The translations under genes were made by a program, and so were the position numbers. Under the pieces are notes generated by a model, which saw only the letters and a list, made by a program, of their open reading frames with translations, had not been told where the DNA came from and did no database searches. Source: Maylandia zebra (lineage: Eukaryota > Chordata > Actinopteri > Cichliformes > Cichlidae). From it: 64,000 nucleotides of DNA. The stretch's first letter is position 1. Every line of letters begins with the position of its first letter. The stretch is from positions 34,332,294 to 34,396,293 of the forward strand of contig NC_135180.1 in the NCBI RefSeq assembly GCF_041146795.1. Direction: 5' to 3'. This document shows positions 3,001-44,300 of the stretch, in pieces.

Positions 3001-3872
3001 AACCACAACGGTAGCACGTCGGAGCTGTATCCGTCTTTTTAGCTGCTTTGTATTTTGGCTTGCGCATCTTCTTTTGTACTTGAACAGCGGCAACAGGCTT
3101 CGTTTCACCAACAGCAATGGCCTTTGCATCAGCTATTGCAGCCTCTGTACACCTAGCAATTTCCAAAGCTCGATCGAGCGTCAAATCCTCCTCCATTAGC
3201 AGTCTTTCACGTATACGAGCATTATTTGTCTTCTCTACAAGTTGATCCCGCAACATTTCATTCTCCATAGCCCCGAACTTACATTGTTTCACGAGCTCAC
3301 GCAGTGCTGCAACGTAGTGATCTGTAGACTCACTGACAGCTTGGGCTCGTTGCCTGAAATGGTATCTCTCGGCGACAACATTGACTTTAGGATGAAAGTA
3401 CGTTTCCAAAGCCTTTACGGATCCCTCGTAATCATCCGTAGCGAGTGATAAGGCGCTGTAGATTCGTTGTCCTTCCATTCCCAAGCAGTGAATGAGCAGG
3501 GCCCTCTTCCTCTCTGTAGCAAAGTCATTACCCCCGATCGCCAGCAAGTAGTTATCGAACAACTTTTTCCACGCAGCAAATGGAATTTTTGGTTCGCCCG
3601 GGCAATCCAGGAACACAGCCGGGGGTTGCAAAGAGAGCAGAGCCATAACTTAATCACCACTACTCTCGTCGCCACTTGTTGTGTGGTGTTAGTTCGCAGG
3701 CATTACACACACATGCAGGTAGGAACAGAGGATTACCGGAGATGACTCCTTTCTTTATTTTTCTTTTTTCTTCTTCAAAACCACAACCAGAACAACATAC
3801 TCACTAGCGCCCTCTAGCGCTTCTGGTAAATGCATCTACAGAACAAATGTAATAGTATGTGTGGACACAACA
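1..3872 (-). mobile_element. Ty3/Gypsy LTR retrotransposon, left-truncated by the window edge, broken
   Basis: Read on the minus strand, the parts run from right to left in Ty3/Gypsy order: one LTR (3677-3872), a gag-like region ending in a CCHC zinc knuckle near 2895-2945, an aspartic protease with a DTGSG motif near 2740, reverse transcriptase with a YLDD box near 1890, RNase H near 1130-1470, and the integrase region from about 960 to the window start. Reverse transcriptase before RNase H before integrase is the Ty3/Gypsy order. No long open frame covers gag or pol, so the copy is a fossil with several breaks. It cannot be dated here because only one LTR lies inside the window. It sits directly against the spastin retrocopy, which it appears to interrupt. 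Confidence 0.88.
3677..3872 (-). repeat. 5' LTR of the Ty3/Gypsy element (196 bp)
   Basis: The boundaries are set by matching ends: TGTTGTGT at one end and ACACAACA at the other, the TG...CA form of an LTR. On the minus strand the LTR is followed at once by AGTGGCGACGAG, a typical position and sequence for the start of a primer-binding region. The outer flank reads straight into spastin coding sequence. Confidence 0.8.
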
Positions 3873-5133
3873 GGTCCCAACTCTCTTATTGGGCCAAGTG
3901 CAGCATCTTTGGCTAATGCTGTCAAATCGCTCCCTGAATATCCTGCAGTCACTTTTGCAAGACAGGACAGTTCGTTTTGGCTCAGTGGACTCCCGTGCGT
4001 TCCCAAAAGATTTTTCAGCAGCGTAAATCTTGTCTAAAGGTCACATATACTCTTTTTGCAAAGTGCCTTAATATTGCTTCATCGAGCTCCTGGGGCCTGT
4101 TAGTTGCTCCCATTACAAGTACCCTGTCATCCCTTCCTGACTGCAACCCGTCAAACTCAATGAGGAACTCAGTTTTTAAACGGCGAGAGGCGTCGTGCTC
4201 CCCCTCCCTCCTTTCACAGAGCAAGCCGTCCACTTCATCGATGAAGATTACTGAGGGCTGTAACTCTCTCGCAACTGCAAAGAGTGCTCGTACGAGCTTC
4301 TCGCCTTCTCCCACATATTTGGAGGTCAAACTAGCAGCACTGATGTTGAAGAATGTTGCATTAGACTCTGCAGCAACTGCTTTGGCGAGCATGGTCTTCC
4401 CATTTCCTGGTGGGCCAAATAAAAGCAAGCCACGTGCAGGAGCTCTCAGACCAGTAAAGAGATCAGGTCTTAAGGCAGGAAGGATGACAATTTCTTGAAG
4501 TGCTTGCTTTGCCAGATCCTGCCCTGCGATGTCATCAAATGACACAGTCGCTCCACTGTATACAATTTCATTCATAATTAAGCTGGCCAGTTTACTGTCC
4601 ACATTCTTTTTCATATCCCTCTTCGGGGGCTGTTTCACAGCTGCCGGTCTTCCATTCTGAGTTTTTCCCACCCGAGCGGTTTTCTTTGCATCAGTTATTC
4701 CTAATGGAGGTCTTACAGAAGTGGAGGGTCTGATGGTGGTGGAAACACCTGCGGGTTGACTTTTAGGAACTGACTTTGGCTGTGAAGGAGCATGATGTGA
4801 TGTCCCTTGGGGGTCATTTCTCCTTTTAGAGGCTAGTGTCGTCTCTAAAAGGGTAAGCTTGTCTTTTGCCATGGTGAGTTTGGTGACCATTTTATCCTGA
4901 AGTCTCTCTGCTCGGTCATACTGCTCTCCAGCTTGCCCAGTGAGCTCTATTGCAATACCCCTTTCAAGCTCAGAAATCCCTTTCTTGTACCACTGCACAG
5001 CCTCCTTCTTCTCACCTGTGTCGTCCTCGTCGATCTTCAGTGCCTTGAATATATACTCAAGCGCCTGCTTGTGGATGTTTTTTATAACTTCAGCGCTGTC
5101 TTTGGGCTTACTTGCGTTTGTTTTGGTCGACAT
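3873..5133 (-). pseudogene. spast: Intronless spastin (SPAST) retrocopy, interrupted
   Basis: From the ATG at 5133 an open frame of 372 codons runs without introns through an N-terminal MIT domain (about residues 18-95), a basic linker, and the AAA ATPase core with Walker A GPPGNGKT, Walker B IFIDEVD and the sensor region [13 protein letters not shown]. Vertebrate spastin genes are split into many exons, so a continuous copy indicates reverse transcription of a spliced mRNA. The start corresponds to the shorter spastin isoform that lacks the N-terminal hydrophobic segment. Near 4030-4060 a small deletion shifts the frame; spastin similarity then continues in another frame ([19 protein letters not shown], then [17 protein letters not shown]) until the copy stops at the Gypsy LTR. 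Spastin severs microtubules; this copy lacks its C-terminal end in the window and is probably not functional. Confidence 0.88.
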
Positions 5134-5350
5134 TTCTCTTGCGCGACTTCCCCCCTGTTCTCAGTCATAACACAGTAAACTAGTCATAAACGAAAACGTT
5201 TAGGCTATATATCGCATTTAAAGGTCTTTCTTTGGGACAACATCACAGAACACAGAAACATCACAGGGCTTTGGAGCGTGATGTTACAGGAGGCGGGCCA
5301 CGGCCCCCGCCGCCATCACAGTAGGCCAGACAAAGGATACAGCTTCAGCT

Positions 5351-20993: not shown

Positions 20994-22182
20994 CAGTGGC
21001 TTGCAAAAGTATTCGGCCCCTTGAACTTTTCCACACTTTGTCGTATTACAGCCACAAACATGAATCAATTTTATTGGAATTCCACGTGAAAGACCAATAC
21101 AAAGTGAGACGTGGAACGAAAATCATACATGATTCCAAACATTTTTTACAAATAAATAACTGCAAAGTGGGGTGTGCGTAATTATTCAGCCCCCTGAGTC
21201 AATACTTTGTAGAACCACCTTTTGCTGCAATTACAGCTGCCAGTCTTTTAGGGTTTGTCTCTACCAGCTTTGCACATCTAGAGACTGAAATTCTTGCCCA
21301 TTCTTCTTTGCAAAACAGCTCCAGCTCAGTCAGATTAGATGGACAGCGTTTGTGAACAGCAGTTTTCAAATCTTGCCACAGACTCTTGATTGGATTTAGA
21401 TCTGGACTTTGACTGGGCCATTCTAACACATGGATATATCTTGTTTTAACCCACTCCATTGTTGCCCTGGCTTTATGTTTAGGGTCGTTGTCCTGCTGGA
21501 AGGTGAACCTCTGCCCCAGTCTCAAGTCTTTTGCAGACTCCAAGAGGTTTTCTTCGAAGATTGCCCTGTATTTGGCTCCATCCATCTGCCCATCAACTCT
21601 GACCAGCTTCCCTGTCCTTGCTGAAGAGAAGCACCCCCAGAGCATGATGCTGGCACCCCCATATCTGACAGTGGGGATGGTGTGTTCAGTGTGATGTGCA
21701 GTGTTAGTTTTCCACCACACATAGCGTTTTGCATTTTGGCCAAAAATTTCCATTTTGGTCTCATCTGACCAGAGCACCTTCTTCCACATGTTTGCTGTGT
21801 CCTCCACATGGCTTGTGGCAAACTGCAAACGGGACTTCTTATGGTTTTCTGTTAACAATGGCTTTCTTCTTGCCACTCTTCCATAAAGGCCAACTTTGTG
21901 CAGTGCACGACTAATAGTTGTCCTATGGACAGATTCCCCCACCTGAGCTGTAGATCTCTGCAGCTCGTCCAGAGTCACCATGGGCCTCTTGGCTGCATTT
22001 CCGATCAGCGCTCTCCTTGTTCGGCCTGTGAATTTAGGTGGACGGCCTTGTCTTGATAGGTTTACAGTTGTACCATACTCCTTCCATTTCTGAATGATGG
22101 CTTGAACAGTGCTCCGTGGGATGTTCAAGTCTTGGGAAATCTTTTTGTAGCCTAAGCCTGCTTTAAATTTCTCAATAACTTT
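20994..22182 (-). mobile_element. Tc1/mariner element, 5' truncated
   Basis: The 3' inverted repeat starts at 20994 after a TA dinucleotide with CAGTGGCTTGCAAAAGTATT, a terminus shared by a large family of fish Tc1 elements. The other end is missing: transposase coding sequence runs to about 22182 and is replaced there by an ATCT microsatellite. Confidence 0.9.
21199..22182 (-). pseudogene. Tc1 transposase, open for 309 codons but lacking the catalytic Glu
   Basis: A continuous frame 22128-21199 covers the second helix-turn-helix and the whole DDE domain; in-frame similarity extends upstream to about 22182 (DKVIEKFKAGLGYKKISQDL), where the first residues of the paired-like domain are lost. 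Counting from the Met at 22128, catalytic Asp are D122 (WSDET) and D213 (QQDNDPKH). The third residue, 35 positions on as in DD34E enzymes, is Lys248 (PDLNPIKSLW; normally PIE). The codon is AAG, one G-to-A change from GAG. The product should therefore be catalytically dead even though the frame is otherwise open. Confidence 0.9.
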
Positions 22183-22185
22183 ATC

Positions 22186-22247
<62 letters not shown>

Positions 22248-25976: not shown

Positions 25977-25984
25977 TCAAATAA
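25977..25984 (+). repeat. Left target-site duplication of the MULE
   Basis: TCAAATAA here is repeated at 37964-37971. The shared string is GTCAAATAAC, so 8 to 10 bases are possible, the range typical of Mutator-superfamily elements. Confidence 0.9.
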
Positions 25985-26682
25985 CGGACGATCTGATTTC
26001 CTCGTGTCAGCATTGTTCCCACATCATCATAATTAATGTTGTTCCAGGTTCAACATTGCAAGTGACCAATCACCTTCTTGTGACGTCATTCCTTTGCGAC
26101 TTCGAAATACCCGCCTTCGATTATTTCGAAATACAAGTGAAGAAGCGAAAAACCGCCGCCTGTCCGCCGAATTTGAAGTCAATTCGCCTGTCCGCCGAAT
26201 TTGAAGTCAATTTAGGATACTTTCCTTTAATAAACGGTAAGCATTATACATATGTTCCTCACTTGGCTTGCTGTTTGTTTGCTAGCGATAGGCTACTTGA
26301 CGACAGCATTAGCTAACCAGTGTTCTCTAGACCAGCGTTCCCCAACTTTTTGGGTGTTTCGTGGCCCGGGGGTTGGGTCAGGCAAAATTGCAGTAGCTTC
26401 CCTGATCATTTTACAAACATAAGTGAAGAGAATCTGGACTAAAAGGCCTAGACTTATGGTTGTGTGCTGAATCTATGAATCAACAACAACAACAACAACA
26501 ACCTTTATTTATAGAGCACATTAAAAGCCTAGGCATACCAAAGTGCTTTACAAAAAAAACAATAAAATAATACAGTTAATCAAACTATCACCTGGAAACA
26601 TAATTAACTGGTCCATAGCTGTGAAACTGGACATGAGTTCTTGATTCTATGGAGATTAACAGTAATCCAGAAATTTACAAAT
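25985..26682 (+). repeat. Left terminal inverted repeat of the MULE
   Basis: Matches the inverse of 37380-37963 except for a 97-bp retroposed fragment (26483-26579) and a short extra CGGTA near 26233-26238 that creates a splice donor (CG|GTAAGC). With the acceptor CCACCAG just before 27191, this would give the transposase gene a 5' untranslated exon inside the TIR. Confidence 0.9.
26483..26579 (-). mobile_element. Short LINE/SINE 3'-tail fragment inside the left TIR
   Basis: Begins with a CAA repeat (tail on the minus strand) followed by CCTTTATTTATAGAGCACATT and AAGTGCTTTACA, a 3' tail shared by fish SINEs and LINEs. It is flanked by ATCAA on both sides, and the right TIR has the uninterrupted site (AATCAAACTATC), so it is a young insertion. 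Confidence 0.7.
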
Positions 26683-27012
26683 TTGTCCCAGGGACATCGC
26701 GTAAATGTTGTCCCAGGGACATCGCGTAAATGTTGTCCCAGGGACATCGCGTAAATGTTGTCCCTGGGACATCGCGTAAATGTTGTCCCAGGGACATCGC
26801 GTAAATGTTGTCCCTGAGACATCGCGTAAATGTTGTCCCTGAGACATCGCGTAAATGTTGTCCCTGGGACATCGCGTAAATGTTGTCCCTGGGACATCGC
26901 GTAAATGTTGTCCCTGGGACATCGCGTAAATGTTGTCCCTGGAACATCATGTAGAAGTTGCCCTGGGACATCGTGTAGATGTTGTCCCTGGGACATCGTG
27001 TTAAAGTTGCCA
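26683..27012 (+). repeat. Left subterminal minisatellite, 13 units of 25 bp
   Basis: Thirteen tandem units plus a degenerate end. The conserved core is the palindrome TGTCCCWGGGACA followed by TCGCGTAAA. The centre is CCCAGGG in four units, CCCTGGG in six, and CCCTGAG or CCCTGGA in three. The same unit, inverted, forms the array at 37187-37379. Open frames across this array are repeat artefacts. Confidence 0.95.
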
Positions 27013-27192
27013 GAGACATACCATATGAAAGTTTAGCTTCTTTTAGCCCCTGTTTGTTTTATATTATTTTATATATATATATTTTTTAATATTATATTTA
27101 ATATTTACATTGTATTGCAAAAAACCCCAAAACAAGTTAAAATGAATTAATGAATATTGACTAATTAAACCTTCGTTATTTTTCCACCAGAA

Positions 27193-30100
27193 ATGGATGA
27201 CATAATTAGAAGAAGTGTTCTGAATGACGAAAAAAAAAGAACTGGAAAAGACACACAACTTTGTGTGCATGTGTCACAATGCCAGGAGGACCCATTCAGT
27301 GTTGTGTTAGAAAAATTGAACTCATTAACCCTTCATGGACATTATAAATGTTTAAATGTTGCCTCAGGTAAAGACAGGAAAAGAGACTATTACAAATTCA
27401 ACTGCATCAGAGCTGGGGAAAAAAGTCGAAACAGCTACAGAGCAGTGGGCTGTAAGGCCTATGTTTCATTTAAAGTACTCAAATGTTGGAAAGACCACAC
27501 AGTCATCGTGCAGCGTACATATGATAAGCATGATGGGCATGATCCTTCGGACCCAAAAGACGCACATTTCAACAATATTTCCAGTGATTTGAGGAGGAAG
27601 ATTGAGGAACTGCTTTCCCTTGGAACTAAGCCAGCCATCATACTAACCGAATGTCATAAATGGGCCAAAGAACATGGACACAGAGATCTTCACAACAGAG
27701 AGCATTTTGTCACACCACGTGACATTGACAGTGTTAGAACCTGCATGATGAGGAAGAAGCACTTTAACTGTGGAGACAGTCAATGTGTACATACCTTACT
27801 TAATGGAAAACATCAAGAACATGTTCTCTTCTATCAACCATACACATCTGACCAAGAACTAATGATTGTTTTGCAGACACCTGTAATGAAATCAAACATG
27901 GAGAACTATGCAAAACAGTTAGTATTTGTTGACACCACGCACTGCGTTAACCAGTATTCATTTCCCTTATTCACACTTGTTGTAAGAGATGATCATGGGC
28001 ATGGAGTCCCTGTGGCCTATGCTATTGTCAGCAACGAAAGTCAGAAAACCCTGGAAACTGTTCTTGGAATAGTTTGTGAGCATTTCCCAACTTCCCCGAG
28101 GTAAATAATACATTGACAGCTATTAATTTTGAAATAATTCCTTTTCAAAAAAGTTATAACATGCCAGAATCTAATGCTATAGCTGCAGCATGGGCTGCGA
28201 AAAACTTTCCTTTCCAGTTGTTAAAGTTATTCCTATAGGCTGTATGCAGTATTTTATATATCTACTTGTGAGTTGAAATGTTTAATTTGGCATTGAAGTG
28301 GTGCTTTGAGATAGCAAAAACATTTTCATACTGTTTAATCTCATTTAGTGTTTTCTTTTTTTCTGTAGAGCATTTATGGTTGACAAAGACTTTGCGGAAA
28401 TAAATGCTTTGCAGAAGGTTTTTCCAGAGTCAGCTATCCTTCTATGCTGGTACCATGTCTTGCAGGTAAACCACATTGTTTTCTTTTCACGTTGTCTAAG
28501 ATGCACCTGAAACACATTTTTACAACAGGGTCCTGTTGTTATGATTTGCCTCATTGTGATATTCACCTACTCAGGTTAATGAATATAAAGGGATAAAATG
28601 TTGAGTGACTATGTCCATCCATTTAAGACCACAGTGCACTCATCTTCTGGTGGCTGCTTCCCAAAGCTCTTTTTGACATTTAAAAATATGTTTGCCTGGT
28701 TGATTTCTGTAATGCACAGGTCCTCTTGTCCAGTGAGTGACAAAGTTATTTTTGGAAGTCAGCTTTCTTTTATGCTTTTTGTACAGCTGCTCCTCTGTCT
28801 CTCTCTCCAGATTAACTTTTTTTCTCTTACATTCACAGGCTGTTAATCGATGGCTTTCAAAATCAGAGTCCGGGGTCCATGGGCTTTCTAACACCCAAAA
28901 GAGAAATGAAATCATTTCTTTCTTTTGTAAGCTGAAAGCTTGCACATCTGTAAGTGTAATTTGTCTATTTCACATTTTGATTTCTTGATTACACTAAGAG
29001 CATAATAACTTTCAGTTGCTAAAAAAAGTTACAGAGAGATACAAAATAGATTTTTGAAACAATTTCTAAAACTGGCTTCTTATCTTGCTTATCAAAACAA
29101 GTACTTAAGCTGTGCAGAACATCATTGTGTCACCCACTGTGCAGTAGAACTTGTGAGTGGGATTCTTTCACAGACAGATGCTGAAACCAAATATGCTTAT
29201 AGGTTTAGTGTTCCTTCTTAGCCATTGTAAGGGAAGAAATAATTGCTTCTTAATACAAAAACACGACATATTATTAATAACTTAAAATTCTTAATGTTAT
29301 TCAATAAAAGGAAAAGGGCTTCAATACATAATATTAAAGATTTCAATAGGTCTGTTAAATGGATTGAAATATATTCTGTTGCATCCAATTCTCTTAGGAG
29401 GACGACTTTAAAGCCACATCAGCAGAGTTCTGCCAGACATTTAAGCAATACCCTTTGGTGTGCCAGTATTTTCAGAAGCACTGGGAAGGCATTGGCCACA
29501 TGTGGTGTGACTACGGCCGTCGCTTCAGTCACGCTCGTTCTGAAACAAACAATGTGATTGAAAGGTATGATTTATTATTTTGACCTCATTCAATTGTATT
29601 GCTGAAAAAAAGATATTATGCTTTAATCCAAGAGGCTAAACTGAGTAGGTTCGTCATGTCATTGCCAGAACAGGTTTTAGGCAAATCCTTTAAATTCTAG
29701 CAGCGTTTTTAATGTTATCACAACAAAAAACAGAGTAGGTGGATTTGCCTAAATCAGCTAAACCGGCACAGAGCATTCCTTTATAAAAGACGTGTGCAAT
29801 AGGTATTCCAATTTTTTAAAAAATAATACAGTCTTGATTAAAACTTTAAATTCCTTCAATTACAGTTACTAATCATTTCAAATAACTGTTTTTCAGATTT
29901 TTCCACCGCCTGAAATACCAGTTTTTATCTGGCTACAAGAATAGGCGTCTGGATGATCTGATTGAAGTGCTCCTAGGGAAGGCCGACGACTACTTCTCAG
30001 TCATAAAAACCCTGCAAGATGTGGGCCGCATGAAAAACAGGTTTGCTGACACCTTGTCTCAAGTTTCAGACTCTGCTTCAAGACTGATGGAAAGTGGTTG

Positions 30101-30934
30101 GGCTCTTAAAATTACAGTCAAGAACAGCCATGGAGTTAATGCATATCAAGTCCCATCTGAGTCAAGAGAAGACATGGTGTATGATGTCTGCCCTGTTGAG
30201 TCCTACTGCAACTGTACATATGGCTTACGAGGACTTCTTTGCAAGCATCTAGTGTTACTTGCAAAATTAGCAGAGGCTGACAATGACATCTATCCAAACA
30301 TGGAAACAGACCTTGGCAAGAATTGCAGTGAAAGAAAGGCATTACTTTGTACACTGTGAGGACTTGAAAGTGATAAAAATGCCAAGTTTGTTTGGAAATC
30401 TGTGTTTTTTTGCATCGTCTGAAACACTTCAGTGCACTTGTTGTATGTTCTCTCACTATAACACATGTGCTTGCCTGAAGGTGGCTTGTAGCCATTTTAA
30501 ACAAATGAAAAACTCTCTGAAAAGTCCTCTATCAACTTTGAATGACACTCCTGTAGTTGAAAGCACAGACAAAAAATGCACAGAAGATGCAGTTGGAAAA
30601 CTAAATGCTGTTTTAGACACAGTTAAACAGTGGGCATTCATTCCAGAGGGTATTACTGCAATGATAGATGAACTGCATACAAATGTCTTAAAAACAAAAC
30701 AAGTAGGCAAAAGTATATGCCAGTACGAAATAAAGATGACAGATAATGCACGCAAAATTAGGCCATTGTATTCTAGCAAGAAATGTTCGGCCAGCATCGA
30801 CATTCCAACAGTCTGAAAATGAATGTGAACAGTCGATAACCACTGAAAGAGACACATCCTCTGGAGAAAATGAAAACCTTTTGGAATACAAAACAAAAAA
30901 GAGAAGAGTTAAAGCTAAGTATATGCACAAGTAG
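27193..30934 (+). CDS. MULE transposase (DDE, WRKY/GCM-like N-terminal finger, SWIM finger)
   Basis: Five exons with consensus splice sites and matching phases: 27193-28100, 28369-28465, 28839-28949, 29398-29564 and 29897 onward. In order: an N-terminal Cys/His region of WRKY-GCM1 type (CKAYVSFKV...HDGHDP); first Asp in LVFVDTTHCVNQYSFPLF; second Asp in FMVDKDFAEINA followed by the MULE CWYH pair; Glu in SETNNVIERFFHRLK; and a SWIM finger YCNCTYGLRGLLCKHLVLL. After the SWIM finger the frame closes at 30359, but similarity-like coding continues in another frame (30310-30816), with a second Cys-rich segment CTCCMFSHYNTCACLKVAC, and then a third frame ending in a basic TKKRRVKAKYMHK at 30934. 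I read this as two frameshifts near 30310-30340 and 30760-30790, both after the catalytic core. The enzyme would cut and join the TIRs in the nucleus. Confidence 0.85.
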
Positions 30935-31177
30935 ACTTTTGTGTGACATTTCAAAGGGACTGCATCCATTACTTCTGTTTATTGAAACCTAAAGCTGAAT
31001 AGCTGTCTTAACTTTCTGCCAAGGAACAGATGAAAAGAAATTGTTTGGTCTCTCAAGCAGTTGTTATTTATGTGTGTTATTCATTACTTTGGCTTGGTTG
31101 CTGTTTTTGATACAAATTCATCTGTGCCCATTGTAATATTTTCATATGTTACTATTTTTATATTGCTATGCATTATA

Positions 31178-31183
31178 AATAAA
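31178..31183 (+). terminator. Polyadenylation signal of the transposase gene
   Basis: AATAAA about 245 bp after the last coding segment, followed by AT-rich sequence. Confidence 0.5.
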
Positions 31184-31929
31184 GGATTACTTATTACTAT
31201 TAAAGGTCTGCATTTGTAATTGTTGGTATTATTTATAAAATATGCGCTCTTAAGTTTTTTGCTCCATAAAACGATACCTGTCACTTTTTGGACATAGAGT
31301 ATCAGCTGTTGAGAATCCTGGCTCATACAAAATAGAAGTAAAAGGTTTCAACATCCAGCCTTTTTATGATTAAATACAAAGTGTAATAACAGAGTTATTG
31401 GGGTGTGATTTTGTTAATAGTTAGTCTTAAGTATAAGTTTAATAGTAATGAGTAAGAAAATATAGCCAGAATAATGGAATGAGACTAACACCTGACCTCA
31501 CACTGAGATTTGGTATGAAGTGGCATGTTTGTGCTAATGCTGACATTGGGGCTCAGAGTTCCTCTGTGTGTATATATTTGTGAACGTTAACTTGGCTAAT
31601 GTCCAAGGGTTTGATTGCTTTCCTGTTGGATTGTATCACAAAGAACAGGGATAAGAGCACCAGTGGCCGTGCACACCCTCATCTCTCTCCTTCACCCGAT
31701 CATTAGTGTTGGAAACCGGCATTAGCTCAGAGTAGATTAGACTTCAGTATAGTGCAAGTGATTTGATTTTATGATTATTTGATTCAGTTTTTTCTGTGTT
31801 CAAGCTCAATTACTTTAATAAAATATGTTGAATTCAAACAAATAAATAAACAAATAAACTGTGGACATTACCCTTTTAAACCTTTCTGAAACAAGACAGG
31901 TAAAAACCAGTGTATAAAAGTTTACATAG

Positions 31930-32265
31930 GTATAAATAGCTCTAACACTTTACTCCAGCCTGGCGTCCACACATGTGGACATCACATTTTGGGTTATTTA
32001 GACCAAAATACTAAATCTTGATCAACAAGTGCCTGATATACAGTTATGAGGACATTATACTGCAACTGTTCTATCAAAATTTCAAATTAATGTCCTCATA
32101 TGTGGCTCTCATTTTTCTCAGAAACAAAAATTAGGTAAAAAAAAACAAAACCTGGTAATTCTTTCTTTTTACATTCATCGGGTTCCAATCGGCCCAAATA
32201 TCAAAGAGAAATTAAAAATGCATGCCATGGAAGATTTCGGGTCTTAGGGGGTTAAAATGACCAGA
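31930..32265. mobile_element. MITE-like repeat, possibly piggyBac-derived
   Basis: Contains CACATGTGGACATCACATTT and ends at GGGTCTTAGGGGGTTAAA; the TTAA at the end would fit a piggyBac target. A related copy lies at 53350-53530 (shared GTCCTCATATGTGG and AATTAAAAATGCATGCCATG). It inserted between the two MULE genes. Confidence 0.45.
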
Positions 32266-32787
32266 CCCCTCCGGCCTGTTTTCCAGGCCACTAAATTAAA
32301 CCCAGTCAATTACCAATTGAACAGAATAAAAACCTACGAGGTCCACTAATAGTCCAAAAGTCCAAATCTTTAATAGAAAAGACAGGCAGAACTCAAACAA
32401 ACAATAATCCAAACGAGGAGCATATATACACACTGGAAAGTAAATAATTATAAGTTATTAAATCAGACTAATTAAATACAGTAAAACTAATAAGGGAAGA
32501 CGAACACACGGGAAATAAAAATAACAGTGTAAACATACCAAAACTCAAAATAAAACAGGAAAGCTACTACAAACCGAGTGTGACACAATTACATTCATAT
32601 TGAAACATATGTGATAATTTTCTTTCTTTGTAGCATTTTTAAGATATGTGTTAGAACAGTCATTATGCTGTTTGGATTAGGAACCAATCATTTTTGCCAA
32701 ATAGTTAACACAAACTTAGAACAACAATGAACAATTTTCAAGATTCTGATTTACAGAACAAACAAAAGTCACAAAAGGTTTCATTAT
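32266..32787. other. Gap between the convergent MULE genes
   Basis: About 32290-32600 is an A-rich degraded interspersed repeat similar to 24745-25030. The rest, to the stop codon of the accessory gene at 32788, is AT-rich 3' flank. No gene seen. Confidence 0.45.
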
Positions 32788-35700
32788 TTAAGAGACAAGA
32801 TCAAGTTTTTCACACAGGAATGAAATGACAGAATCCAGTGCAGCGGGGCCAAAGGTGTGTGTCAGCAAACTGAAGGTTGAGGAATCAGTCAGCTCATGTT
32901 TAAGATTGTGTTGGATTTTGAGAAGAGTCTGTCTGTTATTAGAAAGTAAGATTAACAATGTTACACCAATAACCCAAATACGGGGAAATGACAAATAATA
33001 CCAAAAAAGATACAACTTTCATATTGTTTTACTAACTTACTTTGTCATATCAGCACTTGAATGGTCGATGCCTTTACAGACCATGTCTGTTGTGACATCG
33101 CAGGCCAATCTTCCGGCAAACCCGAGGGCTAGCTCCCCAGCCTCCTCTTCACTCAGAACACTAAACACTGTTACTTTAGTTTTGGCCTTCTTAGGCCTGT
33201 CAAGAATCATTGCGGGCAGTTTGGCTTTACGGCCCTAAAAAAGAAAAAGTGCAAACACCAAAAGAGCAGAGAGAGACACACACACGCGCACAAAGTTAAA
33301 TGCTTTTGTTTACATGGTGTAATTGTGTATATGTTGCAGCAAATGCACAATTTCCAGCCACATTGTCACTTCATTGATACGAGTAACCCGGATTTATTTC
33401 AGGTGACATCAAAATCACGAAATGTATACCTACCCCAATCAAACCTCTGAAAACATGAACTGACATGTTCTCTGCGTTGATTCTGCGCTTGATCTCGTCT
33501 TCTGTTATTGTGTAGGTTTTCTTTTTTGAGCTTGGTACTGTAAAATTATGATATTATTTTATGCCATGTTATACCCCTAATTAAAGATTGTGAATTATTA
33601 TGTAGTTTTAGTTTGCATTATTCTCCTGAATTAGAAGAAGCTGATAACTATTGCATTAGTTAAACTGATTTGCATTACATTAAATTGCTGACTTGTTGTG
33701 AATGAATGATATTGTTTTATGATGCATTATATTGCTGAGTTATAAGAAATACTGTTCGCAGAAGGTTATTGTCTAATTTGTCTGAGTAGAAGAGAACAGA
33801 GTGTGCTGGAGTTTTCTGCCCCATTTCAGCAGGAGCAGATAAACAGGGAGCCAAGGTCGTAGCTTAGGCGCTGTGTGAGAGAGAGCATGTGAATGTTTAG
33901 GCTTTTTATGATAAGGTGGAGGCACCAGAGGTTATAAAAGTTTGAGCAATGCTCCACCATTTTGAGATTTTGAGGCTGTCTGCATCAGTGTCCATCTCCC
34001 ACGTGTGTGATCATTAAATCATCGTTTGACTCAACCCGGCCGGACCAGTGTTGTTATTGTGGTTTTTTCTCTTGTCTCCATCCCCAATATTTTGAACCTT
34101 AACAGCTAACAGTACAGATAAGCGACCATGCACTCTGTAAACTGTACTAGTTCCTTCTGAATCAGTTTGGAATTCTGTATCTGCATCGATCCTGTCAACA
34201 TCATCAGCAGCAGCATTATCTGTACTCAGACTTGTGCCGTATACTTCTGCTTCTTTTTCGTTGTCTTCAGTCTGTGTACCTTCATCTCTTTCAGTCTGTG
34301 TACCTTCATCTCTGACTGTCAGTCTTCCTATCTCACTGTTACTTGTCGATTTGCTGCAGATGTTCTCTCCCTTAGGAACTTTTCCTTTGTCATTCGCTGC
34401 CTGATGCTTTCCCTGATGACATTCTTCACTGGCTACTTCTATTGCTCCTCCTGTATAGCCACCCACTATGCTGCACAACTCCTTTCCCTCTGCTGTGCTG
34501 CACTGTGCTGTTACATAAAGAAGAATGATATAAACAGCACTATATCAATTTAATTGTGAAGAGAAATCCCCACAATACGACACAGTTATGTCTAAAATAG
34601 TTTTGTGTAAAAACTGGATCTTGAAACGTCCACTTTAATTACACAGTCCTGGTGTGCAAAGGCAAAATTACGAAAAAAAATTTCACTTTAAACATTTTTG
34701 GACATTGTTTAGTTATATTGTGACTTACTCTCACAGAAGATACAGTTGCCACAAACAGACTTTGAACAACGCATGTGCTTGTATGCACCACATTTCTGGC
34801 ACTGCACCTGTGAATTAAAAAAAAAGAAAAAAAGAAGAAGAAATAAACAAACAAAAAACAAATGAACAAAGTCCATTAAATAAACAATCTATATGGCTAA
34901 GGACATGTCATAGTGTACCCGGTCTTTGGCTGCAATCACACACCAGCACTGACTGCACTTCCTAGTTCGATCTGCAAAATATAATTTGTTTAAGTACAAG
35001 TTACATTTTCCAATGTTAGAGAAAAAGAAGGCAGCTAATTTTATCTTTACCTATTGAGGAAAATAAGTAGTGGCAAAGTCGGGACCTGAGCTTTGTGATT
35101 TCAGTGTTGTACTCCTCCACTTGTGTTTTACCGTCAATGAGAGATTGGGCAAACTAATAATTGACGAAGAAGAAAAAAAAAAAAAAGAACAAAAAGAATT
35201 AGATTAACAAAGAAATGTTTGTTTGTTTTTAACCCCCCCCCCGAGAAAAACAAAACAAAACAGAGCAACCAAAGCAAAGCATTACTGCTGAAATGGTTCA
35301 ATCTACAAAAAAAATTGAGATTTTACCATCCTGCCTCTAAGGCTTTAAAAACTGAATAGGCAAAAATGTAAACATTACTTATATAGGTTAAAGCTATAGT
35401 TTTCAGTACCATTATGACATGCACTCCACATGAGTTCCCATCCTGTTGATGTGGGTGGCTCACATGTGACAAGGTCCACTCTCCAGCGCAGCCTCTTGCT
35501 GAAGCAAATGAGCTGAGAGATCGCAGTTATTACAAATAAAAAGCATATAGAGAAATCAATAACCACGTTCGGTAATGATTTCAATTAAATTAAATATGTT
35601 ATGTTAAATATGTTAATTAATTACCTCCAGTTTTTCAACACCGCACTTTTTCTGACCTCCGACTCGCCAAATGAATTCATATAGACTATGGTCCTCTTGG

Positions 35701-37066
35701 GTATGTCACAAAACTGTTTTGTAAAAAGATGGATATGGTAGGCTTGGGCCTTGAGCTTTCCTAATGAGGGACACTGAAAAGTATCATGCACTAGAGAGAG
35801 TGCAAAATCTGTGCAACTTACAAACAAGGTCCAGTGGCTGCCGTTTTCCAGACAGGCTCCAATCAATTTCTCATACATCTGAAAGATGTTTTTCTGGAAA
35901 TAAAAATAATGTGACAAGTATGTTTTTCTGTCAAGAATGACACTGCAAAACTGCAAAAGCTTGTCAGGTGAGACTTGTAATTAATTCTGCAGATACACAA
36001 ACATATAGAAAGTGTCATTTTTGGTTTACATTAATTAATTTCTATAGTGTGTACAAAACAAATCAAGACCACAGACTCAACACGCACCACTCAATTTTTG
36101 GTGTTCTTTATCAGTTGGCCAAGACAGAAATGTTTTAATCTGTGTGCATTGCTTTTGAACAAGTCTTTACACAGAAAAGGTTTCAGAAAGGTATTTTTCA
36201 GGTTCTTCTGACAAGGCTTCAATTTTGGAAAATGCTGTTTGTTTATAGTGGCAACTTATAAACCCTTTGTGATAAGAACATAGTTACCACAGTCCAAGTC
36301 ATACCTTCAAAAAGTATGCACTTTGTGCTCTTGTGGACCCATCCAAAATTTTTCCAGTGATTTGGCTTGGTATTGGATAAATGTGAGGGAAATTCTATAA
36401 AAATAACATAAATACACCTATGTTTTCAAATACATTACAAAAAACGTAAACATGCTATGTCATTATGATCAAACCAGCTTTTCAACATACCTCACACTGC
36501 AAATAGATTAGGCCATCTATTACCTTATAAAACAAATAAATAAATACATATAAATAAAAACAGAACTAAGGAATACGATTCATTAAGTAAATTGTACAAT
36601 AAAGTGTATTTAAAGCAGAATTTAACATTAGTTTTATGACAACATAAAAGGATTTTTATGTCAAGAGGTACCTCATCTGAAATGTTAGTCTGATCAAACA
36701 GGGATTTCAAACTTGAAATACCAATAGAGTTTGGTCCAGCTACTCCCACAAGGTAATCTGTGAGAAAGCATATGCTGTAGTCAACAGATATCATTTTCTT
36801 TTTGCATGCTGCAACCATCATCCATTTCAGTCTTCTAGGAGCTTTGTCTGGTTGTAGTTCTTTTTTCTCCTCCTCATCTATTAATTAAATTGTTTTCTGA
36901 CCTTCCTAACTGTTTCCGACCTGTCTTCCCAATGTGATGTTTAAGCAATATATGTATGGTCAGAAGGGGGTGAAATTTTCATTGCAGTTGTACGTGTAAC
37001 ATTGCATGTGATAATAAAAGGCTTGATTGGTTGATTATTCAACATGAGTTGACATTTACCTGACAT
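32788..37066 (-). CDS. MULE accessory protein: C48 (Ulp1-like) protease + C4HC3 finger + AP-2 domain (543 aa)
   Basis: Fourteen exons on the minus strand (37066-37060, 36877-36672, 36523-36491, 36394-36305, 35893-35822, 35695-35625, 35494-35410, 35153-35051, 34971-34919, 34807-34729, 34507-34111, 33530-33434, 33234-33041, 32932-32788) join with consistent phases into one open frame, MSDEEEKK... to ...LCEKLDLVS. Residues about 30-190 form a C48 peptidase: His132 (NGSHWTLF), Asn143 (VYMNSFG), Gln177 and Cys182 (QQDGNSCGV). Residues 228-265 form a C4HC3 finger (CSQC, CQKC, HMRC, CIFC). An acidic linker (two DEGTQTE repeats) follows. Residues about 390-540 match the AP-2 C-terminal domain: GRLSVLS...TYTITEDEIKRRI (AP-2: GRLSLLS...YKVTVAEVQRRL), LSEEEAGELA (LVEGEAVHLA), FSLLTHTFGPAALDSV (FNLISHGFGSPAVCAAV). 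The weakest junction is 34111/33530, where a solo LTR sits in the intron. Role inferred: SUMO/ubiquitin-like protease plus sequence-specific binding, nuclear. Confidence 0.82.
33567..34104 (+). mobile_element. Probable solo LTR in an intron of the accessory gene
   Basis: Possible limits TGTTATACC...CCTTAACA. Inside are a TATA-like box (GGTTATAAAAG near 33928), an ATTAAA signal near 34013 and a TG-rich U5-like tail, the layout of a fish retroviral or Gypsy LTR in plus orientation. No clear target duplication, so the left limit is uncertain. It lies within the intron between 34111 and 33530. Confidence 0.45.
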
Positions 37067-37186
37067 TGTGAAGGAGTCACAGTTTCTGTAAGGGTGTAAG
37101 AACATAACATGTGGATTTGTTACACTTCTTTTTCACAAGTTAATAACAATCAATAATTTTCATTCCATTATTTACAAGCTATCACA
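37067..37186 (-). promoter_or_regulatory. 5' leader of the accessory gene
   Basis: Immediately upstream of the ATG (37066) the minus strand has an acceptor-like CACCCTTACAG, so the start exon is probably spliced to a leader beginning in the right TIR. No obvious TATA box was found; the donor used for this leader was not identified. Confidence 0.4.
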
Positions 37187-37379
37187 CGATGTCCCAGGGA
37201 CAACATTTACACGATGTCCCAGGGACAACATTTACACGATGTCCCAGGGACAACATCTACACGATGTCCCAGGGCAAATTCTACATGATGTCCCAGGGAC
37301 AACATTTACACAATGTCCCAGGGACAACATTTACGCGATGTCCCTGGGACAACATTTACGCGATGTACCAGGACAAATT
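37187..37379 (-). repeat. Right subterminal minisatellite, about 8 units of 25 bp
   Basis: Inverted counterpart of 26683-27012. Seven units keep the CCC(A/T)GGG core and one, the innermost to the TIR (GTACCAGGAC), is degenerate. Fewer units than on the left. Confidence 0.93.
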
Positions 37380-37963
37380 TGTAAATTTCTGGATTACTGT
37401 TAATCTCCATAGAATCAAGAACTCATGTCCAGTTTCACAGCTATGGACCAGTTAATTATGTTTCCAGGTGATAGTTTGATTCATAGATTCAGCACACAAC
37501 CATAAGTCTAGGCCTTTTAGTCCAGATTCTCTTCACTTATGTTTGTAAAATGATCAGGGAAGCTACTGCAATTTTGCCTGACCCAACCCCCGGGCCACGA
37601 AACACCCAAAAAGTTGGGGAACGCTGGTCTAGAGAACACTGGTTAGCTAATGCTGTCGTAGCCTATCGCTAGCAAACAAACAGCAAGCCAAGTGAGGAAC
37701 ATATGTATAATGCTTTATTAAAGGAAAGTATCCTAAATTGACTTCAAATTCGGCGGACAGGCGAATTGACTTCAAATTCGGCGGACAGGCGGCGGTTTTT
37801 CGCTTCTTCACTTGTATTTCGAAATAATCGAAGGCGGGTATTTCGAAGTCGCAAAGGAATGACGTCACAAGAAGGTGATTGGTCACTTGCAATGTTGAAC
37901 CTGGAACAACATTAATTATGATGATGTGGGAACAATGCTGACACGAGGAAATCAGATCGTCCG
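37380..37963 (-). repeat. Right terminal inverted repeat of the MULE
   Basis: Inverse of the left TIR, ending CGAGGAAATCAGATCGTCCG at 37963. It lacks the retroposed fragment and the CGGTA string (with its GT donor) seen on the left. Confidence 0.9.
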
Positions 37964-37971
37964 TCAAATAA
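37964..37971 (+). repeat. Right target-site duplication of the MULE
   Basis: TCAAATAA, identical to 25977-25984. Confidence 0.9.
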
Positions 37972-38359: not shown

Positions 38360-41300
38360 ATGGAGTTTTCTGCCACAGTGATCTTGGCAGGGCTAATCTT
38401 AGCTCTGCTGTGGCTGTTTAGTGTAAAAAGAAGGAAGTATCGCCTGCCTCCAGGACCTGCTCCACTTCCTCTTCTAGGAAACCTGCCACAAATAGACAAA
38501 AATGTACCTTTTAAAAGCATACTTAAGGTGAGTTTGGCATTTTTATTTATTTATTTATTAATTTTTAGCATTTTTCATATTGTTAAATTGTTCAGTAAGA
38601 ATAAACAAGAGCACCCTCCATTACTGTTCTGGATTTTTATTTTAGCTGCATGCTGACGTTGCATAAATATAAACAAGGCTTTTTACTTTGTCTTAGTTCA
38701 GTGAAACCTATGGTCCTGTGATGACACTGTACATGGGCTGGCAGCGGACAGTGGTTCTGGTGGGGTATGATGCTGTGAAAGAAGCCTTGGTGGATCAGGC
38801 AGATGACTTCACAGGCAGAATGCCCATACCATTTCTGTTCAAAGCTACCAAGGGCTATGGTAACAAGACACCATATATCAGTTTGTACCTAAAGTACAAA
38901 AGAATGGGAAGAATGACAACTGTTATTGATGGAGTGATGGAATGTTTATCAGTGGAAATAAGTATAGAAAAAAGGAAAAACCTAATTGTCAGTTGTATAT
39001 ATAGAACACCAGGATCTAAGATTGAGATATTTAAGGATAATATGGAGGACTTATTTACAAATATAAATCAGAAAAGAATGTTTATTTGTGGGGACTTTAA
39101 TATTGACTTATTGAATCCAAATCATAATAAGAGTACAGAAGACTTTATTGATTCCATGTACAGCATCGGTTTATTTCCACTGATAACAAGACCGACCAGA
39201 ATAACATCTCATTGTGCAACTCTATTAGATAATATATTTACAAATATAATAGAAGGAAAGATAAAAAGTGGGCTGTTAATCAATGATATAAGTGACCATT
39301 TACCAGTCTTTGCATCTTATAAATGCCATTATAAAGTGAACAACGATGGACATAAGATTATTTACAAAAGAATAAGAACAGAGAAGACCTTAAATTGTCT
39401 TAGAAATGAACTTTTAAAGCAAGATTGGAATATTGTGTATGAACAAACAGAAGTTAATAAAGCTTACGAAGGATTTTTAAGAACATTTAACACATTACTT
39501 GATAAAAACTGCCCAGTAATTGAAATCAATAGGAAACACAACTATGCAGGAAGACCATGGATGACAAAAGGACTACAAAATGCCAGCAAAAAAAAGAATA
39601 CCCTATATCGAGAATTCATAAAAAAGAGAACAATAGAAACTGAAATGAAGTATAAAACTTACAAAAATAAATTAACTAATATAATGAGATCCTGTAAAAG
39701 AGAGTATTACATTAAAAGGTTAGAACACAATAAAGATAACACAAGAGATATATGGAATGTATTAAACAGAATAATCAAAAATGAATCAAGGAATAATGAT
39801 TACCCTGGATACTTTATAGAAGGGACAAGAAGTATTAATAACATGGAAGAGATAGTAAATGGCTTTAATGAATTCTTCGTAAACATAGGGCCAAAACTGG
39901 CAGAAGAAATAAAGGTTGATGGAATAGAAAGGGACACTGGTGAAAATATTGAAAGGAATAGTAGCTCAATGTTTTTAAGAGCAGTGGAAGAGAAAGAGAT
40001 TTATGACATAGTTAGAGGACTTAAGAACAAAACCAGTACAGACTGGAATGATATTGATATGGTAACGGTAAAGACAGTTATTGATGGTATCGTAAAACCA
40101 TTAAAATATATATTCAACTTGTCGTTTCAAAAAGGAGTTTTTCCACAAAAAATGAAAGTTGCTAAAGTTATTCCCATTTACAAAACCGGTGAAAGACATC
40201 ATTTTACAAACTATAGACCAGTGTCAATACTCTCCCAGTTCTCTAAGATACTGGAAAAACTCTTCATAAAAAGATTTGATAGTTTTGTGGAAAAATATGA
40301 ATTAATGACAGATAGTCAGTATGGGTTCAGAAACAACAGATCAACAGCTTTGGCACTGATATATTTAATGGAAAAGATAACGGAATGTATGGATAATAAG
40401 AGGTATGCGCTCGGAGTTTTCTTAGATCTAAAGAAGGCGTTTGATACTGTTAATCATGAAATTCTATTAAAAAAACTGGAAAAGTACGGGTTTAGGGGAG
40501 TGGTTTTGGAATGGTTAAAAAGCTATGTAGGGAATAGGCAACAATATGTACAAATAAATGAATATAAATCTAATTTGATGGATATAGCTTGTGGAGTACC
40601 TCAAGGTTCAGTACTGGGTCCAAAAATGTTTATTATGTACTTAAATGATATCTGCAGAGTATCGGAGATTTTAAAGTTTGTAATATTTGCAGATGACACA
40701 AATATACTGTGTTCAGGTGTGGAGTTGCCACAGGTTTTGGGGATGATCACACAGGAATTAACGATATTAAAGAAGTGGTTTGATATAAATAAATTATCAT
40801 TGAATCTAGATAAAACCAAATTTATGTTGTTTGGAAACCAAAAGAAAAACATCGAAGTAGAAATATGTGTTGACAATGTATATTTAGAAAGAGTAAATGA
40901 AATAAAATTTCTTGGGGTGATCATTGACCACAAGCTCTGTTGGAAGCCACACATTACTTATGTTCGGGGGAAATTGGCACGGGGCATTGCCGTCCTGGGG
41001 AAAGCAAAGCATATGTTGGATCAGAAAGCACTGCACATTTTATACTGTGCTTTACTACTGCCATATATGAGCTACTGTGTAGAGGTCTGGGGAAACACAT
41101 ACAAAAGTAACACACAAACAATAACTATAATACAGAAAAGGGCCATTAGATTAATAAATAATGTAGGGTACAGGGACCATACAAATGCACTCTTTGTCAA
41201 AATGCAAGCTATTAAATTCCAAGACTTGGTGAAGCTTAAAACAGCGCAAATAATGTATAAAGTAAAAAATAAATTGCTTCCCAAAGAAATCTGTAAATTG

Positions 41301-44300
41301 TTCATAGAAAGAGAAGGTGGGTATAACTTAAGAGGGAAATGGAATTTAAAAATACAAAGTGCTAGAACAACTTTAAGAACTATGTCTATCTCAATTGCAG
41401 GAGTTAAATTATGGAACAGTCTAACAGAAGAAATAAAAGACAGTCAAAACATAAAACAGTTTAAAGTAAAATATAAAAACCTAATTTTAAATAAGTATAA
41501 GAATGAAGAAAACGGGGTTAACCCAGGACGGTAATGTTGCTGGTAATGGTGTTGCGGTTCTTTTTTGTTTTTTTGTTTTGTTTTGGTTTGTTGTTTTTCC
41601 ATAACTTGTGTATCTGCAAATATACACATTCTGTATTTTTCATATGAAAGAAACTATACTGTGGTGGGGCTTGCTAATTTCTTGTTTTTGATTTATGTAT
41701 GTTATGTTTTGTTTTACTTCATATGTTTCATATGTTGTTTGTTTAATTTAAGACAAAAAAAAATTAAATGAATGAGAGGTAAAACTTGAGGGGGTAGGGA
41801 CAAATAAGTAAATACTTCAGCCTACTCCTTTTCAAACAAATAATGGAATGATATTTTGTAATGATTGTGAAGGCACATGTTTGAAATGTTTGAAATAAAA
41901 ATGAACTGAACTGAACTGAACTGAAGTTTTCAAGACGAGTGATTTCTTTGGCATGACTCTAAGTCAACTTTACATGAAAATAAAGAAATTTCAAATAATA
42001 GTTTGTGTAAAAGTTTTTCCTAATCTTGACATTTCATCTTCTCAGGTTTAGTAATCAGTAATGGGAAGCGCTGGCGCCAGCTGCGACGCTTCACACTCAC
42101 AACCCTGAGAGACTTTGGGATGGGACGCAAGGGGATGGAAGAATGGATCCAAGAAGTCAGCGAACACTTGAGGGTTCACATACGTACATTTAAAGGTGCG
42201 TTTTTAGCTATTGTATGGGCACATATTACATACAGGGTGGATTTGAAAAATCATTCATTGCTCAATCATTGCTTCTCTCTCTCTTTTTCCAGTACAGTAG
42301 CTTGACTATGACAAAAAAGATTTCAATTCAATATTTACCTCAGAATTGACTGGCATTAATTTGTGCCTGCACAAGAAATAGGCTGTAGTAAGAAGCAAAA
42401 ATAAATATGTAACAAAATGCACCAAATACACATAAAAGTGTTGATAAAATATGTCAAATAATTCAGTAACATTTGAAGTCTATCAGATTTTGCAATTAAC
42501 ATGCAAATCCTGCTTTGTCTGAACTCTTTAACGTTTGAACAGAAGACATGGAATATTGCATAACATGCTAAAACACTAAAGTATCGTTTATAGCGTCTGC
42601 TTGCTGTGACATGAGTGATGCACTTGGAAAGGATAAACTTATCCATGCCAATTTACAGTTATATGTTTTAATAAAATTATTTACTTTCAATTGTCATATC
42701 CACCTGAAAACTGAGGAAAAATGGATCTTTCAGTCAAACTTTTTTTGTGATTTGTGTGTCAGCTGCAGAGGACTTAACTGAATAGGCTAGGTCTCAGGAG
42801 AATATTATCAATAAAAGTTAATGATCTAACCACAAGTTTGGAGCAAAATCAGTTTATACAGAGTGGCCTATATAACAGAGAGTAAGTAGGCGTGAACACA
42901 GATAATTTTGTGCCATGCCTAGGAACTATGCTGCTGTTAATACTTAAAGTGTAATTACACTATAATGGAGTAATGCTGCTCTCTGGTTAGTCTGGGCCTT
43001 TATGTGAAGAGTTTGCAGCCTCAGAGTCCTCTCACAGTACAAACAAATGGGTTTCAGTGTATTTGTTCATCCTAACCTGGCTGTAGGTGTGTGTTTGTCT
43101 GCCTCTTTGTGTTAGCTTTGTGTTAACCTCGTGACTACTGGGGTACATGCTAGAAACAAACAATCCAAAAAAATACTTAAGTATTTACTCCATAGCAGAC
43201 AGTGAAGTACAACAAAGTATTTGGCAAGTAGATTCCAATGAAGCAACATAGAAGGGTGGAAATTCAGCAATGGCAGGAGATAGCACATGCTGGTGGTAAT
43301 AATAACACAGCTGGAGACTTGGATGAGCAACAATGATAAAGTGGACATGGCTGAGGGAGATTTTGAAAGGTAGAATGACAGAAAAACACTGAGATTTACA
43401 CAGAGCAGAGATTTTTTTGTTATGAAAATCAAATCAAATTAGAGAATCAGCGTGATGATGAAAGAATTCGATTTAAAAAGAGGAAAGCAGAAGTGAGAAA
43501 AAGAAAAGAATTGCAATCCAAAAGCCCAAAAATCCAGACAGATGATTTCATTATTGAACTTCATGATATCATCATATGATAATTAACCTTAGTGGACTTC
43601 AGTTGATTAATGTGAAGAACTTTTTTTGTTTATCATAATGCACTCTTTTGTCGGTTGTTGTGAAAGTGTAAACAGCCGAATGGCCAGTATATTTGTGGAG
43701 CAGACAAAGAAGCAGAATAACAAGAAACAAGACTGGAGTACAACAAAAAGCGAGTTGTTTATTTTGGCTGATGAAAACACAAAAGCAAAAGGCAAAGGCA
43801 AAAACTAAACTATAACCTAAACTGGGAAACACTAAGACTAGACAAGAAAAACATTAACATGAAAAGGAGCGTGCAATAACTGAGACTAAAGACAACATTA
43901 AATCCATGGATCATAAGGAGAGGAAAACAGACGACCTGACAGTGAACAAAGGGAGACAGAGGAGTTAAATACACAGAAGGGTAATGTGGGAAGTGGAAAC
44001 ATATGGGGAACACAGCTGACACAAATCAACATGACACCAAAGGGCAAGCAAAACTAATACTGAACATGGAACACAAGACCGTCAAAATAAAGCAGGAAAC
44101 GTGGAGAGATGTAAACTGGGAAGCACAAGCTTGACACAAGGTTCAAGAGAAAGCAAACATGAGAGACAGACAGAGGGACCGAGGGAGAACAAGAGTGAGG
44201 GAGCACTAGAGAGAGAGGGAGACTTAAACAAGGGGCACTTGAGAAAGAGGGAACGAGACATGACAGAAAGGACAGACATGGGACAGGAAGGGGAGACGAG

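Follow-up and report, generated by a model that had tools for sequence, protein, structure and literature searches.

Positions 25985-37963 of a 64,000-nucleotide stretch of the Maylandia zebra genome (NC_135180.1:34,332,294-34,396,293, assembly GCF_041146795.1; called the window below, with all coordinates given as window positions) are one complete copy of a MULE-type DNA transposon, in which two convergent genes encode the transposase and an accessory protein. The accessory protein is made up, in order, of a C48 protease, a C4HC3 finger motif, a variable linker and what we take to be a C-terminal AP-2 domain. AP-2 proteins form a core family of animal developmental regulators, and the domain is otherwise known from animals. 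No description of AP-2 inside a transposon was found in the open-access literature searched, Repbase and Dfam lying outside that search. The anatomy of the element and of its accessory gene, as set out below, we regard as virtually certain.

Anatomy of the element and its two genes

The element is 11,979 bp long, with the exact ends CGGACGATC...GATCGTCCG, and is delimited by terminal inverted repeats (TIRs) of about 0.8-1 kb. The outer blocks of these repeats lie at 25985-26483 on the plus strand and 37476-37963 on the minus strand, the left block matching 37476-37964 reversed over 500 columns with 97.8% identity. Comparison of the flanks gives an 8-bp target site duplication, TCAAATAA, at 25977-25984 and 37964-37971 (plus strand). 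Such a duplication is seen in both of the copies for which the two ends are in hand, and its sequence is different, GAATGCGA, in the C22 copy. Inward of the outer block on both sides are tandem arrays with a 25-bp unit, at 26679-27009 on the plus strand and 37184-37380 on the minus strand, in which the palindrome TGTCCCWGGGACA is found in nine and six units, respectively. These 15 are all of its occurrences in the window, with none outside the element. The element has the characters of the MULE superfamily, namely a DDE transposase domain, a target duplication within the range of 8-11 bp and long TIRs. The first base of the TIR, before GGACGATC, is T in stretch L061, A in L062 and C in the other copies with a match.

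The transposase gene, on the plus strand, is intact. Its exon model comprises 27193-28100, where a domain scan places the start of the MULE domain, 28369-28465, 28839-28949, 29398-29564 and 29897-30359, the last of the five containing the SWIM-like C-terminus, seen in the Pfam comparison, and the stop codon; all introns are GT-AG and the 581 residues are read with no internal stop. The product matches the Pfam MULE model (PF10551) with an E-value of 3.6e-19 and 69.5 bits (cut-off 27.6), the best Pfam match being ZSWIM1-3_RNaseH-like at 2.9e-22, and the SWIM-like finger at the C-terminus scores below the Pfam cut-off. Past the transposase stop and in another frame, an open frame at 30271-30813 on the plus strand carries a second CxC...CxH SWIM-like pattern; it has no Pfam match at E 1, and over this interval the C1 copy aligns without indels and with frames identical to those of the window.

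The accessory gene lies on the minus strand within the same TIR- and duplication-bounded element as the transposase, as a preliminary description of this DNA had proposed. That description joined 14 exons with consistent phases into 543 open codons. The exons do join in frame with GT-AG introns and the frame is open, but the model when rebuilt encodes 555 residues, the real number of exons is 13 and the supposed intron 11 is an insertion. In the C1 copy the gene is read without interruption through 13 exons with GT-AG introns, giving 564 residues.

In the window the short first exon (37060-37066), with the ATG, is placed by its in-frame join and by the C1 copy. The C1 copy as well as the join also supports exons 2 (36672-36877), 3 (36491-36523), 4 (36305-36394) and 8 (35051-35153). 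Exons 5 (35822-35893) and 7 (35410-35512), supported by their joins and by Pfam, carry the HW and QQDGNSCG motifs of the C48 protease, and exon 6 (35625-35713), supported by its join and an alignment with Ulp1, carries the Asn that replaces Asp. The two halves of the C4HC3 finger, which is recognised by Cys/His spacing only, fall in exons 9 (34919-34971) and 10 (34729-34807), both supported by their joins and the C1 copy. Exon 11 is divided by the insertion, and comparison with other copies places the part before it, with the linker, its 24-bp coding repeat and the start of the AP-2 domain at about 34130, at 34112-34507, and the part after it, within the AP-2 domain and also matched by Pfam, at 33434-33534. 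The middle of the AP-2 domain is encoded by exon 12 (33041-33234; in-frame join, C1 copy and profile comparison) and its FSLLTHTFG block, followed by the stop, by exon 13 (32788-32932; in-frame join, C1 copy and Pfam).

The insert itself, of 573 bp at 33539-34111 on the minus strand, starts with TG, ends with CA, is flanked on both sides by the 4-bp duplication GTAC and is missing in all 18 other copies that cover the junction; the 20 loci checked also included the window itself and one that stops short of the junction. It is a later insertion inside the AP-2 exon that resembles a solo long terminal repeat, and not an intron. The junction is uninterrupted in both the C1 and C5 copies and reads SVPSSKKK in C1; the splice between exons 11 and 12 of the first model (SVLSKKK) was rejected as an artefact on the same absence of the insert from 18 of 18 copies. 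Since the insert splits the AP-2 exon, the window copy could yield the complete protein only if the insert were by chance removed by splicing.

In the linker, the 24-bp tandem repeat at 34266-34313 encodes (RDEGTQTE)n, and copies differ in the number of repeats, their lengths varying in steps of 24 bp to as much as +312 bp. TQT is a binding motif of the dynein light chain LC8, and the accessory protein may dimerise through LC8 by means of it.

Peptidase_C48 is detected in the accessory protein by Pfam at 5e-7 and 30.2 bits, above the curated cut-off of 20.7, and the active-site residues HW, N and QQDGNSCG named in the preliminary description are present. The HW, the Gln and the Cys of SCG align with yeast Ulp1, with Asn at the position of the Asp; the catalytic set of Peptidase_C48 is His-Asp-Gln-Cys. 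The spacing of Cys and His residues likewise fits the C4HC3 finger described there, but no Pfam finger model reaches its cut-off in a scan of the accessory protein.

The AP-2 domain and its linkage to the element

The C-terminal domain of 152 residues, taken from the letters of the intact C1 copy, is matched by TF_AP-2 (PF03299) with an E-value of 1.3e-8 and 35.4 bits, and within the whole 564-residue C1 protein with 1.7e-7 and 31.7 bits, against a cut-off of 23.4. The first model with its artefactual join scored somewhat above the intact form (3.9e-9; 40.8 bits for the domain and 37.1 for the whole). Scanned singly, the 40-residue exon piece and the last exon gave E-values of 6e-4 and 0.032, with neither score reaching the curated cut-off. 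The element domain scores 17.4 bits on a profile built from three host AP-2 domains (C5, C9 and C15), and the best of 2000 shuffles 6.7, which makes a chance resemblance very unlikely. A profile-profile comparison of the element and host domains gives an E-value of 1.6e-5 and a probability of 79, with 38% identity over 78 columns. The likeness is collinear, with GRLS followed by RR, EA..LA and FSL.TH.FG. The co-linearity with AP-2 that had been claimed for this region is therefore upheld by the curated cut-off, the shuffles and the order of the blocks, and we take it as remote homology to AP-2.

The remoteness of the match is what might suggest that the AP-2-like exons are a neighbouring host gene or a chance resemblance. 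Among solved structures only TFAP2B and TFAP2A are matched, with E-values of 0.021 and 0.027 (for the query with the artefactual join), and the middle AP-2 exon on its own has no TF_AP-2 match. Besides the shuffle control and the matching of both ends of the domain in order, it is the other copies that speak against this. In the same genome (962 Mb in 63 contigs, from which all copy counts are taken) the AP-2 part matches at 28 loci, among them two 25-residue fragments on C12 that are possibly one element and two divergent relatives, on C21 and C10. At 25 of these loci C48 exons lie upstream in the same orientation, no more than 9 kb away; at 23 the transposase lies downstream on the other strand, no more than 10 kb away; and 21 have the full convergent layout. 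Of 567 first-look TIR candidates 40 were scored, yielding 14 inward pairs within 20 kb, two of which have one right end in common, and 13 of the 14 enclose the AP-2 domain. With so many loci and 13 of 14 TIR pairs a single host gene would not be expected, and we give that explanation practically no credence. The proposal that the AP-2 exons belong to the element is thus supported, and the accessory gene is shown to be integral to this element family within the genome examined.

The copies are also very similar to one another. Along an 838-bp stretch at the 3' end of the accessory gene, C1 and C5 do not differ from the window, and most other copies are more than 99% identical to it, which suggests that the element has moved recently. 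The degenerate C21 relative has 73% identity in the AP-2 exon and 58% in the transposase, in the same convergent layout, and no C48 match was found near its AP-2 exon in the genome search lists; on C10 there is one more divergent AP-2 exon, with neither C48 nor transposase in the match lists. Because the C21 relative is convergent, and a divergent AP-2 exon exists on C10, the association of AP-2 with the transposase is likely to be older than the present burst.

Origin of the AP-2 domain

The element domain was compared with the TFAP2 domains of the same genome and with chains from the PDB. Host AP-2 genes were found at five loci, of which two lie on C15 at a distance of some 20 kb; two neighbouring AP-2 genes are the vertebrate arrangement. 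The three complete host AP-2 domains group closely (85-87% identity to the first), with the element domain far outside the group. The host domains have phase-2 introns at VLR|R and K|Q and a phase-1 intron before EAVHLA, whereas the element domain has a phase-0 intron at GLIG|GRK and a phase-2 intron at K|Q. When the two K|Q introns are forced into register the alignment scores 33.5, almost the same as the 32.5 of the free alignment.

MULEs tend to acquire fragments of host genes, according to the part of a 2019 survey that was available (PMC6446971), and the AP-2 exons might accordingly be a recent capture of the fish's own TFAP2 gene, particularly as the first intron of the element lies at the same exon-edge gap of the alignment as the first intron of the host. 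However, the phase of that intron is 0 in the element and 2 in the host, and the second host intron is missing from the element. An identity of 38% to host TFAP2, where the paralogues have 85-87% among themselves, is hardly that of a recent capture. The broad Pfam model gives a higher score than the host-only profile (35.4 and 17.4 bits, scores from different profiles), and the older, 73%-identical relative already had the AP-2 domain. Recent capture appears very improbable. The comparisons point instead to a domain derived from an ancient AP-2 gene, or to descent of both from one ancestor, and we consider an old origin of the element's AP-2 domain probable.

The relationship could also run in the other direction, with AP-2 transcription factors descending from the protein of such an element as FHY3/FAR1 descend from MULE transposases. 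The AP-2 domain is integral to the element family and has an older relative in the same genome, and MULE-derived transcription factors exist as a precedent, as related in the accessible part of a review on transposon-derived animal factors (PMC10027918). Against this, the direction is not readable from one genome, and the AP-2 sequences compared were from one genome and the PDB. A descent of this kind seems unlikely. A fuller version, in which a MULE accessory protein supplied the DNA-targeting module from which the AP-2 family arose, relatives of the source still move in fish and AP-2 directs a SUMO-type protease to the palindromic arrays of the element so as to block silencing, is more speculative still. 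We know of no explanation for the origin of the AP-2 family. A text search of the main text of the review did not find AP-2 there (PMC10027918). Searches of phages gave no AP-2 match, and in viral contigs 85 matches to two peptide patterns from the host profile were found, none of them confirmed, patterns of the host type being such as would miss domains of the element type.

Possible function and related systems

AP-2 proteins bind palindromes as dimers, with the consensus GCCN3GGC. The AP-2 domain of the accessory protein, as a dimer, might bind palindromes within the subterminal arrays of its own element and so bring the C48 protease to them. There the C48 domain would cleave SUMO, or a modifier related to it, off proteins involved in silencing or transposition, and the element would be kept expressed and mobile. 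The accessory protein would then act like a VANC anti-silencing protein of plants, though it is not itself one. Across 170 array units, taken from 20 stretches, constancy is 93-100% at the positions of the palindrome, except at its A/T centre (78%), and 51-100% at the array positions flanking it, five of the 12 at or below 92%; the units are not independent, some stretches covering one copy twice, and three of the 20 hold none. The count of palindrome units varies among element copies.

As reported in the available part of one study, VANC21, from an Arabidopsis VANDAL element, recognises short sequence motifs that are repeated in tandem within the element encoding it, and VANC proteins contain variable regions rich in repeats (PMC5735166). 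The binding of VANC21 to its own arrays, together with variable regions that are matched by the linker repeat here, favours a self-targeted anti-silencing factor. On the strength of these parallels an AP-2-tethered SUMO-type protease acting on the element's own arrays is put forward tentatively as a mechanism. As a whole, the combination of MULE anatomy, an old AP-2 origin and self-targeted anti-silencing is the best explanation we have, and one towards which we lean slightly.

The main rival is that the accessory protein takes part in transposition as the end-binding partner of the transposase, as TnpA does in Spm, with the protease processing or deSUMOylating the transposase and not silencing factors. 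The palindrome arrays are just inside both TIRs, where the sites of accessory proteins usually lie. On the other hand, five transposase loci of 95-99% identity, some of them partial, have no AP-2 nearby, although help in trans would be possible. We regard such a cofactor as somewhat unlikely.

Several observations also weigh against the anti-silencing reading and the wider explanation of which it is part. The array palindrome differs from the AP-2 consensus, GCCN3GGC being absent from the arrays, and matches only CCN3GG, a common motif with 138 occurrences in the window. The Asn at the catalytic Asp position of Ulp1 makes the predicted protease activity uncertain. The five AP-2-less loci, out of 27 with a transposase, have no AP-2 match within 10 kb, so such copies can exist without the AP-2 domain in cis; the expectation that other copies keep the AP-2 exons holds for the family as a whole, with its 28 loci, but not for these five. 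Some copies are damaged. Two further copies were read along the entire gene, of which C1 is intact and C5 broken, exon 2 of C5 aligning over 213 bp as against 206 bp and exons 6 and 7 not aligning to their ends. For exons 8-13 at 20 loci, 12 have no frame-breaking change, seven (including the window) have indels that break the frame or changes of larger size, and one is partly covered. In favour of the wider explanation, the variants at these 20 loci, counted once each, give a weak indication that the AP-2 domain may have been kept working during the spread of the element, with 12 non-synonymous and 11 synonymous changes in the AP-2 part where 73% non-synonymous would be expected (one-sided p 0.025, variants being treated as independent and transitions assumed to be twice as frequent). 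The finger and linker part, with 24 non-synonymous and 11 synonymous changes and one stop, gave p 0.25. The selection signal is a weak one, uncorrected and seen in one of two regions tested.

Three of the five AP-2-less loci carry different internal deletions, with window breakpoints at 31725/35192, 31879/34530 and 32352/34714. That AP-2-less elements are a separate ancestral form was considered and rejected, each of the three loci that were read having its own breakpoints (the others are at C49 and C16:3869778).

With the animal MULEs Phantom and Ghost the element shares the MULE transposase domain, SWIM-like finger, 8-bp target duplication, long TIRs and a minisatellite. In the parts of the 2019 survey that were available, evidence for chordate MULEs is limited, with one Ciona sequence, and vertebrate MuDR records are judged mis-identified (PMC6446971). 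The parts of its tables that were covered name no AP-2 or C48 gene, whereas many copies here carry one (PMC6446971). The transposase resembles ZSWIM1 and ZSWIM3 through the ZSWIM1-3_RNaseH-like match that they have in common, a likeness drawn via the Pfam model only, but is here mobile, with TIRs and a target duplication. Plant Kaonashi MULEs also have a Ulp1-like C48 protease on a MULE; these are plant elements, compared by description only, and we know of no AP-2 domain in them. An element-encoded protein that is not the transposase, tandem motif arrays and a variable repeat-rich protein region are common to the present system and VANC, which differs in having DUF1985 and DUF287, with no AP-2 or C48 named in the available text (PMC5735166), and in that the function proposed here is inferred. 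Pfam scans of the accessory protein found no DUF1985, the VANC domain. The element shares with TFAP2 the TF_AP-2 domain with both of its ends in order (GRLS...SS, RR, EA..LA, FSL.TH.FG); its domain differs in being shorter and divergent, in its fusion to a C48 protease and a finger, and in its location inside a transposon.

Elsewhere in the window, an open reading frame at 2-3649 on the minus strand is presumably a retroelement polyprotein, and a long intronless one at 4018-5160 on the minus strand, perhaps a retrocopy, we take to read like spastin. The frame at 21202-22191 on the minus strand is presumably a Tc1-like transposase. A large reverse-transcriptase frame at 38697-41531 on the plus strand, outside the MULE element, would be that of a long interspersed nuclear element.

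The presence of an AP-2 domain in a MULE hints at a shared history of a regulator family and jumping genes, and a mobile element that carries the domain provides a concrete lead on the link between AP-2 and transposons. The element is also a MULE with an intact transposase and near-identical copies in a vertebrate, where such records had been judged mis-identified in the available part of the survey (PMC6446971). If the proposed mechanism is true, the accessory protein would be an animal counterpart of sequence-specific anti-silencing, exerted by a DNA-guided SUMO-type protease, and one that is open to test.

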